A stretch of 15,115 nucleotides of DNA from assembly GCA_947457715.1 (NCBI GenBank), contig CANGXK010000024.1, positions 1 to 15,115 on the forward strand, read 5' to 3'. The DNA is from Gemmatimonadota bacterium (GTDB taxonomy: Bacteria; Gemmatimonadota; Gemmatimonadetes; Gemmatimonadales; Gemmatimonadaceae). Made by a program: the position numbers and the translations under genes. Every line of letters begins with the position of its first letter. Position 1 is the stretch's first letter. Shown in pieces: positions 9,868 to 14,996 of this stretch. The notes under the pieces are model-generated. The model was not told the origin of the DNA and did not search any database. It was given only the letters and a program-made list of their open reading frames with translations.

Positions 9868-10910
9868 GCAGGCGGCGTGTTGTGGCGGCGACCGCCGCCC
9901 GCGTGCTAGTGCTGCTGGCCGTCGCGATCGGCCTGCTGGCTGTGCTGTTGGTGGTGACGGGGCACGAGGTCGTTCCGGCACTCACGGCGATGGTGCGCGG
10001 CGCGTTCGGCTCGTACTACGCGATCACGTCGGCGACGATCGTGCGTATGGTGCCACTGGCACTGGCGGGGCTGGCCGTGTCGGTGGCCTTTCGCGCGGGG
10101 CTCCTGAACATCGGCGCCGAGGGGCAGTTACTGGTCGGTGCCGCGGCAGCAACGGCGATCGGCGGCGCGCTGATCGGCGTGCCCGGATTCGTCGGTATTC
10201 CGGTGATGCTGATCACCGGGGCGCTTGCCGGCGGAGCATGGGCTGCCATCGCAGGAGCCTTACGACTGCGGTTCGGCGTATTGGAAGTGATCAGCACGAT
10301 CATGCTGAACTTCGTCGCGCAATATCTCACCGGCTGGCTGGTACGTGGACCGTTGCAGGAGCCGACGCGGGTGAATCCGCAATCGGCGACCTTGGCGCCC
10401 GAGCTGCAGCTGCCAACGCTGCTCGACGGCACACGATTGCACGCGGGTGTGCTGCTCATGGTCGTGGTGGCGATCGCCGTGTGGTGGTGGCTGCGCAGCA
10501 CGGCGAGTGGTTTCCGTGTGCGCGCCGTGGGCGCAACCGCAACCGCGGCGGCGAGCGCGGGTGGCATCGATGTGCCGCGCACCCTCTTCGGTGCGTTTCT
10601 TGTGAGCGGACTGTTGGCGGGGATGGCCGGGTCGGTGGAGTACACCGGCATTACGTATGCGCTGTACGAGAACTTCTCGCCGGGCTACGGCTACACGGCG
10701 ATCGCTGTTGCACTCCTGGCGCGACTGCACCCGCTGGGTGTCCTAGCCACGGCGTTTTTGTTCGGCGCACTCGAAGCTGGCGCAAACGCGATGCAGCGCG
10801 ATGCCGGGGTGCCAAGTGTGGTGGTGTCGGTGGTGGAGGCGTTGTTGATTCTGCTGGTGCTGGCCGCCGACCGGTGGCGTTCATCGCGCGTGGACGAGGC
10901 GGGGACATGA
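9864..10910 (+). CDS. Nucleoside-type ABC transporter permease 1 (YufP/NupP-like)
   Basis: This is a 348-residue, very hydrophobic protein with about eight to ten membrane segments. It carries the BPD_transp_2 hallmarks FRAGLLNIGAEGQLLVGA (about 76-93) and a later cytoplasmic coupling segment ALRLRFGVLEVISTIMLNF. The N terminus begins with a positive stretch (MSRRRVV) followed by a hydrophobic helix. The ATG at 9864 overlaps the ATPase stop as ATGA, so expression is coupled. It would pair with the second permease as a heterodimer, the standard arrangement in BMP-type transporters. Confidence 0.94.
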   Translation: MSRRRVVAATAARVLVLLAVAIGLLAVLLVVTGHEVVPALTAMVRGAFGSYYAITSATIVRMVPLALAGLAVSVAFRAGLLNIGAEGQLLVGAAAATAIGGALIGVPGFVGIPVMLITGALAGGAWAAIAGALRLRFGVLEVISTIMLNFVAQYLTGWLVRGPLQEPTRVNPQSATLAPELQLPTLLDGTRLHAGVLLMVVVAIAVWWWLRSTASGFRVRAVGATATAAASAGGIDVPRTLFGAFLVSGLLAGMAGSVEYTGITYALYENFSPGYGYTAIAVALLARLHPLGVLATAFLFGALEAGANAMQRDAGVPSVVVSVVEALLILLVLAADRWRSSRVDEAGT

Positions 10911-11833
10911 TGCCGGAGCTGAGCGTAGGCGTTGGCGCACTGGCCGTCGGCGCCGGCCTGTTCGAGGCGACCGTTCGCACCGCGACGCCGCTGGCCTATG
11001 CCGCGTTGGGCGAGAGCGTGAGTGAGCGGGCCGGTGTGATCAACATCGGGCTCGAGGGCTCGATCATCGCCGGCGCGCTCAGTGCGACCATCGCGGCCGG
11101 CGCGATCGGCGTGGGGGGTGGCTTCGCGGCCGGCGCGGTGGCGGGACTCCTGGTGGCCGCCCTGTTTGCGCTCTTTGCCGTGGGACTGCGCGCCGACCAG
11201 ATCATTACCGGCACCGCAATCACGATGCTTGCCCTTGGGATCACCGGCACGGTCTACCGCACCGTGTACGGATCTAGCGGCGTGGCGCTCACGACGCCCA
11301 CGGCGGCCACGCATGCGCTGCCGGTGCTGTCGGCGATCCCCCTGATCGGGAGGGCCTTCTTCGCGCAGCCACTTGTCACCTATGCCCTGTACGTGATGGC
11401 ACCGCTGTTGAGCTGGTGGATGCAACGGACCCATGCCGGGCTAGGGCTGCGAGCCGTCGGCGAATATCCAGAGGCAGCAATCGCCGCGGGCATTTCTCCT
11501 CGACGCACGCAACTGCTCGCGGTGCTTTTCGCGGGGGCCATGGCCGGTCTGGCCGGGGCCACGCTCGTGCTGGCCCAAGCCGGGACCTTCGCGGAGGGAA
11601 TGTCAGCCGGCCGCGGCTTTATCGCTATTGCGATCGTGGTTTTGGGGCGGTGGCGCCCGCTTGGTGTTGCGGCAACCGCGTTGTTGTTCGGTGCGGCGAG
11701 CTCCGCCCAAACGCTCCTCCAGGCGATGGGATGGACCAGCATTCCCTACCAGCTGTTTCTGGCGGTGCCCTATCTGCTGACACTGGTGGTCCTCGCCGCC
11801 ACCGGAACGCGGGGACGGCAGCGCATGGTGTGA
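10907..11833 (+). CDS. Nucleoside-type ABC transporter permease 2 (YufQ/NupQ-like)
   Basis: The product is 308 residues of mostly membrane-embedded sequence. It contains the hallmark ERAGVINIGLEGSIIAGAL near residues 41-59 and the coupling stretch LRADQIITGTAITMLALGITG. ATG 10907 overlaps the first permease stop (ATGA); a second ATG at 10910 follows directly. The frame is open far upstream inside permease 1, but that extension is a shadow of the other gene. It is the shorter partner of the two permeases, as usual for this transporter class, and it closes the operon. Confidence 0.94.
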   Translation: MMPELSVGVGALAVGAGLFEATVRTATPLAYAALGESVSERAGVINIGLEGSIIAGALSATIAAGAIGVGGGFAAGAVAGLLVAALFALFAVGLRADQIITGTAITMLALGITGTVYRTVYGSSGVALTTPTAATHALPVLSAIPLIGRAFFAQPLVTYALYVMAPLLSWWMQRTHAGLGLRAVGEYPEAAIAAGISPRRTQLLAVLFAGAMAGLAGATLVLAQAGTFAEGMSAGRGFIAIAIVVLGRWRPLGVAATALLFGAASSAQTLLQAMGWTSIPYQLFLAVPYLLTLVVLAATGTRGRQRMV

Positions 11834-12027: not shown

Positions 12028-13191
12028 CTAAAACCGATAGATCGCCGCGACGCCAGTACTTGACGGCATGCGGTCGCGCGGGACCATGACCACATCGCCG
12101 CCCATGCGGAGCACGATCTCAGCAAGCTCCTCGAGAATGTCGTCAACGTGCGGATCGTCCAAGTCGCCGTATGATACATGCGCCGTTGTATGGTCGACCC
12201 GACCGGGTATGGCCTGATCGTCGTCCACCAGCAACGTGCGCACGCGTCCGCCCAGTGCGGCCGCAGCGACATCGGACAATGCGTCTGAGGCAATTCCGCG
12301 CGGAAGCCCGGCGCCGTAGTCGTCCATCAGGCCTTGTAAGTGTGCCGTATACCGCGGCTCGACGATCTCCCACGCCTTCTGCCGCAGCTCTTCGGGCGAG
12401 AACGCGCCCGGATTTCCGGCAATGGCATCGGGCAACAACAGCGCGTTATGGCTCACTTCGCGAAAGAGCGCATGATGCTCCGGCAGTGCGGCGAGAACCA
12501 TCGGGAGACCCGAGTGCTTGGCATGATGCTCGAAAATCGCCCGGTCCACCACCCGGAAAAATCGCTCGGTCTCCTTGTCGATTTCATCTTTGCGTGAACC
12601 CGATCCCGCATGCATCACGATCTGCGCACCGCCATGCCCGAGCTGCCCGACCGAGTGGTACGCCGTATGCGCCTCGGTGACGTGCTCGCCGAGCGCTTCG
12701 GTCAGCGTTCGCGGAACATCGGCATGCAGCACGATCTCGTCGACGGCGTCACGATTGCCATGGAAGAGACGCACATGATCGCGCGTGATCGCGAGCAGCA
12801 GGAACCGGTCGGCCGATTGCCATACCCGCAACAGCGGCTTGATGTGAAATGAGTCTGCGACCATGGCACGCTCAGGCACCGCGCGCTGCAGCCGATACAC
12901 CTTGAAGAAGTCCGCATGCAGAAACACAGCGAGCCCTTCGAGCGAATGCGACCAGAACCGCTCGCTATCGGCCAACGCATGCAACGGCTCGGTGAAGCCC
13001 TCCAGTTCAGCGGCCCCCATCACCTCGATCAGCGACGATTCCGCCTGCCGGAGCAGATTGCGAAAGCGGACCACGTCCTGTTGCGACTCGGGGAAGCGAC
13101 GGCCGGTGGGGAGATAGATCGACACGCACGGGCCAGTGCGCTCCAACAGGAGTTCGGGGAAATGCTCGACCACGGGCGTCGTCATCGTCAC
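12028..13191 (-). CDS. Bacterial archaeo-eukaryotic release-factor-like protein (baeRF family, type 3/7)
   Basis: The protein has 387 residues read from GTG 13191; ATG 13185 is a minor alternative. The opening LLLERTGPCVSIYLPTGRR (15-32), the middle segment LLLAITRDHVRLFHGNRD (131-148), and the closing MGGDVVMVPRDRMPSSTGVAAIYRF match what I know of the baeRF proteins, bacterial relatives of eRF1/aRF1. Where eRF1 carries its catalytic GGQ loop there is GHGGAQ (185-190) followed by a charged helix (200-220). The C-terminal part resembles the eL30/ribonuclease-like fold of eRF1 domain 3. Peptide release is therefore uncertain. The relative Balon is a ribosome hibernation factor. The start overlaps the stop of the HPF-like gene upstream (GTGA), which supports a joint role on idle ribosomes. 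The family call is good; the function is inferred. Confidence 0.82.
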   Translation of the reverse strand: MTMTTPVVEHFPELLLERTGPCVSIYLPTGRRFPESQQDVVRFRNLLRQAESSLIEVMGAAELEGFTEPLHALADSERFWSHSLEGLAVFLHADFFKVYRLQRAVPERAMVADSFHIKPLLRVWQSADRFLLLAITRDHVRLFHGNRDAVDEIVLHADVPRTLTEALGEHVTEAHTAYHSVGQLGHGGAQIVMHAGSGSRKDEIDKETERFFRVVDRAIFEHHAKHSGLPMVLAALPEHHALFREVSHNALLLPDAIAGNPGAFSPEELRQKAWEIVEPRYTAHLQGLMDDYGAGLPRGIASDALSDVAAAALGGRVRTLLVDDDQAIPGRVDHTTAHVSYGDLDDPHVDDILEELAEIVLRMGGDVVMVPRDRMPSSTGVAAIYRF

Positions 13192-13553
13192 AGCGGAAGA
13201 CCTTGGTCGACGGGAGGGCGGTCATATGGATCGACCCCCTTGGGCGGCCGCAGTTTCGCCACACGCTTGTCCAGCACACGCACGAGCTTATCGCGCGCAC
13301 CGTGGAACGCCGCCGAAAGTGTGGCTGCCGCGTGGGTCACGGCCGTCGGATCCTGCCCGGCCACGCGCGCTTCGAGGGTGCATTCCTTGTCGTGCGCGCC
13401 CGACTTCACGGCATTCGCGTCACGGAAATGCACCTCTATGCGGGTGATCTGTTTCGAAAAGCGGGCCAATGTTCGAGTGAGATCGGTCTCGACCTCACGC
13501 ATTGCCTCGTCCCGTCCATCCACATGATTGTCCGTATTCAGCTGAATGAGCAT
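13188..13553 (-). CDS. Short HPF/RaiA-type ribosome hibernation factor
   Basis: The product is 121 residues. It opens with MLIQLNTDNHVDG, the usual first strand of HPF/RaiA proteins. It continues with the helix-strand pattern ITRIEVHFRDANAVKSGAHDKECTLEARVAGQDP (about 36-69) and the basic second helix ARDKLVRVLDKRVAKL (about 86-101). The tail after residue 102 is proline-rich and lacks the dimerising domain of long HPF, so this is the short type. Such proteins bind the 30S decoding centre and block tRNA and mRNA entry during starvation. ATG 13553 is supported by homology; a purine-rich GAGAGGA lies unusually close before it. Its TGA overlaps the GTG start of the baeRF gene, forming a two-gene operon. 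Confidence 0.85.
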   Translation of the reverse strand: MLIQLNTDNHVDGRDEAMREVETDLTRTLARFSKQITRIEVHFRDANAVKSGAHDKECTLEARVAGQDPTAVTHAAATLSAAFHGARDKLVRVLDKRVAKLRPPKGVDPYDRPPVDQGLPL

Positions 13554-13688
13554 GTCCTCTCACTGTCTGGGGGAAACCAAGGACGAGTGCACGCTTTGTG
13601 CCACACCAGCGGGTATGCCGGGCCGGGCGTAGACTCTAGTAGTTGCAGTCCGTGTCATACCCCGCAGTCCCCCCAGAGACTCCGCCAT
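13554..13688. promoter_or_regulatory. Divergent control region between the HPF operon and the dipeptidase gene
   Basis: The two genes are transcribed away from each other, so both promoters should lie in these 135 bp. A TAGACT at 13630-13635 resembles a -10 box on the plus strand but has no matching -35. No strong Shine-Dalgarno sequence precedes the dipeptidase ATG. No clear operator was found. Confidence 0.35.
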
Positions 13689-14996
13689 ATGCCTATTTCG
13701 ACTCCCCTGCGCCGTGCCGCCATTGGATTGGTCGCCACGCCGGCGCTCCTCTCCGCGCAGGCACGGACGCCGGTTACAGATGAGGCCGCCGTGATGGCCA
13801 ACGCGAAGGCCGTTCATTCAGCCGTGCTGTCCATCGACACCCACGTGGACATCGCCCCCGCCAACTTCACCGTGACCGGAGCGAACTACACGCAACGGTT
13901 GCCGCGGACGCAGGTCGATCTGGTCAAGATGGAAGAGGGTGGACTCGTTGGCGCGTTCCTCGTGGTATACGTCGGCCAGTCACCGAAGCTCGACACCGAC
14001 GGATTCGCCAGCGCCAACGCGCAAGCACTCGAGAAGTTCGAGGCGATCCACCGCCTCACCGAACAGCTCGCGCCGTCACGCGCCGAAATCGCGTACACCG
14101 CGGCCGATGCGCGTCGCATTCACGCTGCCGGCAAGCGCGTGATCTTCATCGGCGTCGAAAACGGCTTTCCGATCGGCGCCGACATCACGAACGTGCAGAA
14201 GTTCTTCGATCGTGGTGGCCGCTATATGTCGCTGGCGCACAATGGACACAGCCAGCTCTCCGACTCGAACACCGGCGAACGCGACAGCGTCTGGCTGCAC
14301 AACGGCCTGAGCCCGCTCGGCAAGCAAGTAATCGGAGAGATGAACCGACTCGGCATGATGATCGACGTGTCCCACCCGTCGAAGCAGTCGATGCTGCAGA
14401 CCATCGCGATCTCGAAGGCGCCGATCATTGCGTCGCATTCCGGTGTGCGCGCAATCTGCAATCACAGCCGCAACATGGACGACGAGCAACTCATAGCGCT
14501 CAAGAAGAACGGCGGCGTGATTCAGCTCGTGGCATTCAACGCGTACGTGAAGTGCGACCCCACGCGCGACCTGCCGCGTGAACAGGCGCGTGCCGCCGCG
14601 ATGGCCGAGCTGCGCACGGAGTTCGGTATCACGGCCACCGATCGCCGTGAGCAGCAGGCGCAGATTCAGGCGCTCGCCGACGAGAAGCGCAACGCGTATC
14701 TCGCCAAGCAGGAAGACATCACGGCGCGCCGCTATCCGTCGGATCCGCCGGCCACGGTGAAGGACTTCGCGAACCACATCGACTATGTGGTGCAGCTGAT
14801 CGGCATCGACCACGTCGGCATCAGCTCAGACTTTGACGGCGGTGGCGGCGTGGACGGCTGGCGCAATGCGTCGGAATCATTGAACGTCACGGCGGAACTC
14901 GTGCGCCGCGGTTACTCGAAGAGCGAGATCGAGAAGATCTGGGGTGGGAATTTGCTGCGGGTGATGGAGCAGGCAGCCGCAGTGTCGAAGCGCTGA
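13689..14996 (+). CDS. Exported membrane dipeptidase, peptidase family M19
   Basis: The product is 435 residues. Residues 1 to about 25 form a signal peptide (LRRAAIGLVATPALLSAQA), so the enzyme is exported. The complete binuclear zinc site of renal-dipeptidase-type enzymes is present: H52 and D54 in IDTHVDI, bridging E157 in GVENGF, H229 in DVSHPS and H250 in ASHSGV. The substrate-binding R261 and catalytic-region D381 (GISSDFDG) are also present. The 11-residue spacing from H250 to R261 equals that in the human enzyme. It should cleave dipeptides, possibly including D-amino-acid or modified ones, to feed uptake or cell-wall recycling. ATG 13689 is chosen because it gives the signal peptide; the open frame upstream runs antisense through the HPF gene. 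No other peptide-uptake gene is adjacent. Confidence 0.95.
   Translation: MPISTPLRRAAIGLVATPALLSAQARTPVTDEAAVMANAKAVHSAVLSIDTHVDIAPANFTVTGANYTQRLPRTQVDLVKMEEGGLVGAFLVVYVGQSPKLDTDGFASANAQALEKFEAIHRLTEQLAPSRAEIAYTAADARRIHAAGKRVIFIGVENGFPIGADITNVQKFFDRGGRYMSLAHNGHSQLSDSNTGERDSVWLHNGLSPLGKQVIGEMNRLGMMIDVSHPSKQSMLQTIAISKAPIIASHSGVRAICNHSRNMDDEQLIALKKNGGVIQLVAFNAYVKCDPTRDLPREQARAAAMAELRTEFGITATDRREQQAQIQALADEKRNAYLAKQEDITARRYPSDPPATVKDFANHIDYVVQLIGIDHVGISSDFDGGGGVDGWRNASESLNVTAELVRRGYSKSEIEKIWGGNLLRVMEQAAAVSKR

Follow-up and report, generated by a model that had tools for sequence, protein, structure and literature searches.

The gene pair and its locus

The DNA analysed here, referred to throughout as the window, is a stretch of 15,115 nucleotides from a Gemmatimonadota bacterium related to Gemmatimonas (contig CANGXK010000024.1 of assembly GCA_947457715.1), and a protein search places the closest named homologues of its proteins in Gemmatimonas. 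It carries a gene of the HPF/RaiA type directly followed by a gene of baeRF family 3 (baeRF3), together with the following features.

13188..13553, minus strand: HPF/RaiA-type gene, first of the pair, 121 aa, a short form without the dimerisation domain
12028..13191, minus strand: baeRF family 3 (Balon-family) gene, second of the pair, 387 aa
13188..13191, minus strand: 4-nt GTGA overlap, formed by the baeRF GTG start (13191-13189) and the HPF TGA stop (13190-13188)
13556..13561, minus strand: Shine-Dalgarno-like GAGAGG before the HPF start, read from the sequence (duplex -5.2 kcal/mol)
13588..13603, minus strand: sigma-54-like -24/-12 element TGGCAC-N5-GTGCA, beginning 50 nt before the HPF ATG
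10910..11833, plus strand: ABC permease (BPD_transp_2; PF02653, E 2e-32), by synteny the border of the slot on the baeRF side
13692..14996, plus strand: divergent membrane dipeptidase (Peptidase_M19; PF01244, E 1.8e-94), by synteny the border of the slot on the HPF side

Two open reading frames at these coordinates, joined by a GTGA stop/start overlap, had been described in a first-pass annotation of the window and were confirmed from the sequence, on the minus strand, and its assignment of the two products to the HPF and baeRF families was correct, with Pfam matches above the cut-offs. The chromosomal gene order runs mnmG, SIMPL, parA, parB, a Bmp-type ABC transporter with NIF3, the pair, and the divergent membrane dipeptidase. 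In five of five junction-aligned relatives (L001, L002, L003, L004, and L088) an ATG stands at the base of the window's baeRF GTG, giving ATGA, which makes the GTG start credible, and the 4-nt overlap is likely to be the baeRF start of the window; an in-frame ATG 6 nt downstream of the GTG is a possible alternative. Both reading frames are under purifying selection, with a dN/dS of 0.085-0.11 for HPF (three pairs of intact HPF) and 0.067-0.143 for baeRF (15 pairs), in a comparison in which dS was close to or past saturation in several pairs and the L003 baeRF was extended beyond its stop, with 372 codons counted. Hence the HPF protein matters where it is kept.

The two proteins

The HPF protein matches PF02482 (Ribosomal_S30AE) with 30.6 bits (E 5.7e-7, cut-off 23.7) and reaches 20.6 bits on NCBI TIGR00741, the HPF/YfiA equivalog, under the cut-off of 40.9. 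Its sole sequence match in the PDB is 7m4z_v, the HPF on the Acinetobacter baumannii 70S (E 2.1e-18). The same chain is the best Foldseek match of its structural model (pLDDT 82.3) at 1.2 Å, followed by 8rd8_D, the RaiA of the Balon complex, and the 24 PDB chains retrieved at E <= 0.001 are headed by ribosome-bound HPF/RaiA chains. The profile of this HPF gives the A. baumannii HPF an E of 2.1e-32 and the RaiA of the Balon complex 1.1e-4, and since it is far weaker for that RaiA, the window HPF is assigned to another subtype. Residues 102-121 (window 13188-13250, minus strand) form a disordered tail in the model (pLDDT 50-65), in which an RPPKGxDPFD-like stretch is conserved across Gemmatimonadaceae HPFs.

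The long protein matches PF18845 (baeRF_family3) with 154.3 bits (E 5e-45, cut-off 31.5), which is also the best Pfam match of Balon (residues 12-369, 105.6 bits), and scores 174.9 bits on NCBI NF052287, the Balon equivalog, under the cut-off of 330. Because both proteins of the pair stay under the NCBI equivalog cut-offs, neither is regarded as a close orthologue; as judged by these profiles, the long protein lies within the Pfam family of Balon without being a close Balon orthologue. Balon (8rd8_B) is its only PDB sequence match at E <= 10 (E 1.4e-17, residues 18-387). An AlphaFold2 model built from 29 sequences (pLDDT 82.5) found Balon and Msmeg1130 as the top Foldseek matches and then aRF1/eRF1, which aligned over 435-437 columns with an rmsd of 6.5-13 Å because the domain angles differ. 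Thus the eRF1 resemblance proposed in the first-pass annotation is borne out by the model, which predicts an eRF1-like fold with the full-length eRF1 domain order.

A catalytic GGQ in the window protein was considered and rejected: a sequence scan found neither the GGQ nor the NIKS string, and the glutamine of GGQ is missing. Loop 174-197, which we take to be the place where release factors carry GGQ, is disordered in the AlphaFold2 model, and its counterpart in relatives is Gly-rich. A GGQ string occurs in 30 of the 120 homologues listed, near the C terminus in 21 and in the Gly-rich loop in 10, with one protein having both. These ten loop strings, placed before the middle-domain helix (P0006, P0069, P0083, P0084, P0090, P0103, P0107, P0108, P0110, and P0117), may be due to chance or to a partial return of the release-factor motif; P0006 shares 84% identity with the window protein.

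At residues 33-34, where Balon has its decoding-centre HP motif, the window protein has FP. In 29 aligned homologues, the first residue of this motif is F in 17 and H in 10, and the P is kept in 27; the motif pattern left 21 of the 80 loci described below unparsed. The HP motif has been credited, in the available part of the Balon study, with letting Balon and RaiA share the 70S (Helena-Bueno et al., 2024; PMC10901736).

Adjacency of the two families

GTDB genomes were scanned for relatives, and the best 80 loci of the 368 recovered, a clumped sample with, for example, many Stutzerimonas, were analysed. The first-pass annotation had raised the question of whether the two families adjoin in other genomes, and indeed an HPF lies on the same strand within 250 bp in 47 of the best 80 loci, upstream in 23 (one of them a remnant), which is the gene order of the window, and downstream in 24; one further HPF is 2.5 kb off and another is on the opposite strand. 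The adjacency of HPF and baeRF3 recurs across phyla among these best 80 of the 368 relatives and is beyond chance. The occurrence of both gene orders implies that it originated, or was reshuffled, repeatedly. Outside the clade of the window few loci have genes overlapping by 1 or 4 nt, such overlaps being likely in L039 and L068.

The remaining 31 of the best 80 loci gave no HPF match. Two of them are remnants (L002 and L004), and at least 500 bp were available on both sides in 29 of the 31. Among the matches listed for 40 of the 43 ORFs around 29 HPF-less loci, of which six were unparsed, there were four alpha/beta hydrolases and no other family as frequent. ORFs of about 175-207 aa that end directly upstream of the baeRF3 open frame were seen at the HPF-less loci L042, L053, L064, and L075, which are three Bacteroidota-type loci and one Desulfobulbaceae locus.

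Across 179 genomes of the Gemmatimonadaceae, baeRF3 was found in 14 and the linked HPF subtype in 16, with both in eight, this HPF type only in eight, and baeRF3 only in six. The association has an odds ratio of 26 (Fisher p 1.3e-6, kinship ignored), where the subtype was delimited at E < 1e-20, a cut chosen after viewing a list of 32. In the eight genomes with both, the genes are adjacent in G001, G049, and G005, about 0.7 kb apart in G090, 133 kb apart in G050, and on separate contigs in G075, G077, and G078. G090 has two baeRF3 genes (contigs 218 and 220), one of them with the HPF about 0.7 kb off. The HPF subtype and baeRF3 therefore go together but not strictly.

One chromosomal slot in three states

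The slot between the permease and the dipeptidase is readable in 13 genomes including the window, with G003 seen from one side as its contig ends before the permease. Both genes are intact and overlapping in three of these (window, G001, and G049), baeRF stands behind an HPF remnant in three (G002, G003, and G004), and HPF stands alone in seven (G050, G053, G055, G056, G062, G063, and G067). G005 has an intact pair outside the slot, with a 9-nt gap between the genes. The first-pass annotation had reckoned with a fixed pair; however, in relatives the pair is broken both ways, in this slot as well as in the family-wide counts given above, and it is favoured rather than obligatory. An extra ORF, by eye resembling a glycine-zipper-like lipoprotein, separates the permease from the pair or HPF in L157 (8049-8997), L156 (6765-7661), L151 (2317-3121), and L152 (3546-4442) and is missing from other genomes.

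In the junction alignment, the upstream region and the HPF start are retained in all three remnants. Net losses of 234 nt in G002, 147 nt in G003, and 273 nt in G004, by deletions that differ, leave frames of 43, 72, and 30 codons, respectively, from the HPF ATG to a TGA overlapping the baeRF ATG. The first 33 HPF residues are nearly intact in G002, two internal HPF pieces and the tail are kept in G003, and the remnant of G004, for which tblastn gave no HPF match, is known from its position and the upstream alignment. A fourth case is P0180, a protein of 71 aa with the HPF ends, in which the middle is deleted and the native end is in frame; P0180 and the baeRF P0018 are on contigs of equal size. 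A search with P0180 for further eroded HPFs returned 21 proteins at E <= 10 and no more clear cases. G002, G003, and G004 each have one other PF02482 gene, of a different subtype that the linked-subtype profile misses.

A tree of eight neighbouring proteins splits the pair clade from the HPF-only clade with a support of 100 and makes G003 the sister of the intact G001 (95), the other nodes of the pair clade being weak (34-62), and the baeRF tree joins G001 and G003 at 100 and places P0018 outside the clade of the window. Given that the window, G001, and G049 have an unbroken HPF, the most sparing count is three or more erosions, and at least three are likely from these trees. In a search for the former position of baeRF in the HPF-only genomes, no remnant was found in the 11 slot gaps covered (best E 0.023, in G063), so that a gain in one clade and a clean loss in the other both fit. 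The gene trees sampled the listed rows (baeRF, 40 of 120; HPF, 42 of 67), and the HPF tree is poorly supported, with many nodes under 60; together with the shared contigs they suggest that the pair is old within the family.

A sigma-54-like element upstream of HPF

The sigma-54-like element of the window, which fits the GG-N10-GC form of such promoters, scores 14 of 15.5, and none of 500 shuffles was as good. In five of six clade genomes GGCAC-N5-GTGCA begins 49-50 nt ahead of the HPF start codon with a score of 13-14, which 0-2.4% of mononucleotide shuffles reached; the GG is lost in G003, and RpoN, present in nine of the ten genomes checked, was not found in G003 either. The element also lies 46-47 nt before HPF, with a score of 14, in two of seven HPF-only genomes, G063 and G067, which are the only independent support, as the pattern was defined after viewing the sites. 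Upstream of HPF in G050, G053, G055, G056, G062, and G005 it was not found.

As a general trait of such operons the element is not supported, since outside Gemmatimonadota three of 75 loci reached a score of at least 13 versus 1.12 expected from shuffles, and genome-wide the reversed control outnumbers the pattern in four of four genomes. A sigma-54 start before HPF is a possibility, and an alternative is an inverted-repeat operator, GCAC-GTGC, which matches all the sites except that of G067. Sigma-54 control, if present, would bring a hibernation operon into a regulon mostly associated with nitrogen and envelope functions; in the available part of PMC3162934, hpf is described as a neighbour of rpoN and not as being under sigma-54 control.

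Function of the pair

We consider it quite probable that the two genes form a ribosome-hibernation operon of the Balon/RaiA kind. Under stress, one mRNA would be made over both genes, possibly from the sigma-54-type promoter. HPF would be translated first and would block the mRNA and decoding side of the 30S, and ribosomes finishing HPF would restart at the overlapping baeRF start. The baeRF3 protein would then sit in the A site, covering the decoding and peptidyl-transferase centres without catalysis. In support stand the families, the predicted fold, the overlap, the conserved adjacency, and the purifying selection described above; ribosome binding and joint occupancy were shown by others for relatives, and the same function is inferred here, as are coupled translation and the promoter. 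Against this hibernation operon we count the equivalog cut-offs missed, the FP in place of HP, the other HPF subtype, and the pair broken in relatives.

The eroded loci bring in a further possibility, namely that HPF is dispensable as a protein in this clade and its cistron is held mainly as a translated leader that delivers ribosomes to the baeRF start. We regard this as a serious but somewhat doubtful explanation, and the same rather guarded judgement applies to its corollary that, once HPF function is lost, deletions would be tolerated only if the frame still enters the overlap. The remnants of G002, G003, and G004 are all open from the HPF ATG into the TGA overlapping the baeRF ATG, the internal deletion of P0180 keeps the native end in frame, and three or more erosions are likely from the trees, in which G003 is sister to an intact genome and P0018 lies outside the clade; the other HPF kept in each of G002-G004 would fit the loss of this one. 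If the frame were irrelevant, four of four in frame would be expected once in 81, an after-the-fact arithmetic. However, there are only four cases, noticed after the fact, of which three rest on single metagenome-assembled genomes and one, the G004 remnant, gives no tblastn match to HPF. The remnant overlap adds no evidence, because any ATGA start supplies the TGA, and the frame alone counts. Moreover, in G003 and G004 baeRF has a strong Shine-Dalgarno-like duplex at its own start (-9.4 and -9.8 versus -3.8 kcal/mol in the window), and the purifying selection on intact HPFs argues for the protein itself.

The simplest sense of the open frames is that baeRF output would need translation of the upstream frame or the absence of polarity, and on this view the HPF cistron may have been retained as a leader whose translation serves the Balon-type factor, which would be our inference from the alignments. 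A fuller version, in which selection in Gemmatimonas holds the Balon-type factor and the HPF cistron, no longer useful as a protein since another HPF remains, is repeatedly being turned into a short coupling leader that meters this factor behind a sigma-54-type promoter, is more speculative still and on the whole unlikely. If true, it would describe a decay route from a hibernation operon to a leader-controlled single factor, caught at several stages.

It is improbable that the baeRF3 protein rescues stalled ribosomes or wakes hibernating ones rather than guarding them, as had also been entertained. The predicted fold is eRF1/Pelota-like, the GGQ before the middle-domain helix in 10 of the 120 homologues listed would suit such activity, and a relief role for baeRF is proposed in the accessible portion of PMC6514570 (Burroughs and Aravind, 2019). 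On the contrary, the window protein is without GGQ, the loop concerned, disordered in the model, is rich in Gly in relatives, so that a GGQ there may be chance, and mycobacterial relatives inhibit translation in vitro according to the available text of PMC10901736. Least credible of all is that faulty assembly of metagenome bins produced the HPF remnants and that the pair is intact throughout the clade: G002, G003, and G004 are indeed all metagenome-assembled genomes, but their deletions differ and preserve the frame, the baeRF of L003, which carries a 15-aa deletion of its own, is matched without gaps and at 96% identity by P0014 (12 member sequences), and P0180 was found in jgi, lgn, and ena.

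Comparison with known systems

The link between HPF and baeRF has already been published (2019, 2024), so the pair itself is not new, and the window confirms in another phylum what was reported. A literature search, made mainly without subscription papers, listed no paper that dealt with an eroded HPF or placed a sigma-54 promoter ahead of an operon of the Balon type. What the window adds is one locus in three states, with both factors, the Balon-type factor only, or HPF only, within a genus-level group that serves as a natural experiment. With it one can ask which of the two factors is important to idle ribosomes, and whether the HPF frame acts as a switch on translation of the gene downstream.

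Burroughs and Aravind (2019; PMC6514570), in the part available, described a conserved operonic neighbourhood of baeRF and HPF, whose products they proposed to act together at the A site. Their baeRF-1/HPF association is alike in having both families in one neighbourhood, and that part of the paper makes no statement on the clade of the window, the overlap, or the loss of a partner. Msmeg1130 and Rv2629, the mycobacterial Balon homologues (8v9j-8v9l), share the fold and are more distant in sequence, the NCBI models for them giving the window protein 17.2 and 22.6 bits versus cut-offs of 480 and 320. On the HPF side, the A. baumannii 70S HPF (7m4z chain v) is the same subtype by profile and by structural superposition.

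The nearest system is Balon/RaiA of Psychrobacter urativorans (8rd8, 8rdv, and 8rdw), which has the same baeRF family 3 and eRF1-like domain order, the window protein having neither GGQ nor NIKS. Balon genes most often adjoin raiA, and Balon and RaiA were seen by cryo-EM on one 70S in Psychrobacter, as stated in the accessible text of Helena-Bueno et al. (2024; PMC10901736). Whether two such proteins can share a ribosome without clash, a question put in the first-pass annotation, is thereby answered by experiment for relatives. In contrast to Balon, with which it shares about 20% identity in the structural alignment, the window baeRF3 protein has FP for HP, its partner HPF is of the other subtype near that of A. 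baumannii, and the two genes overlap by 4 nt.
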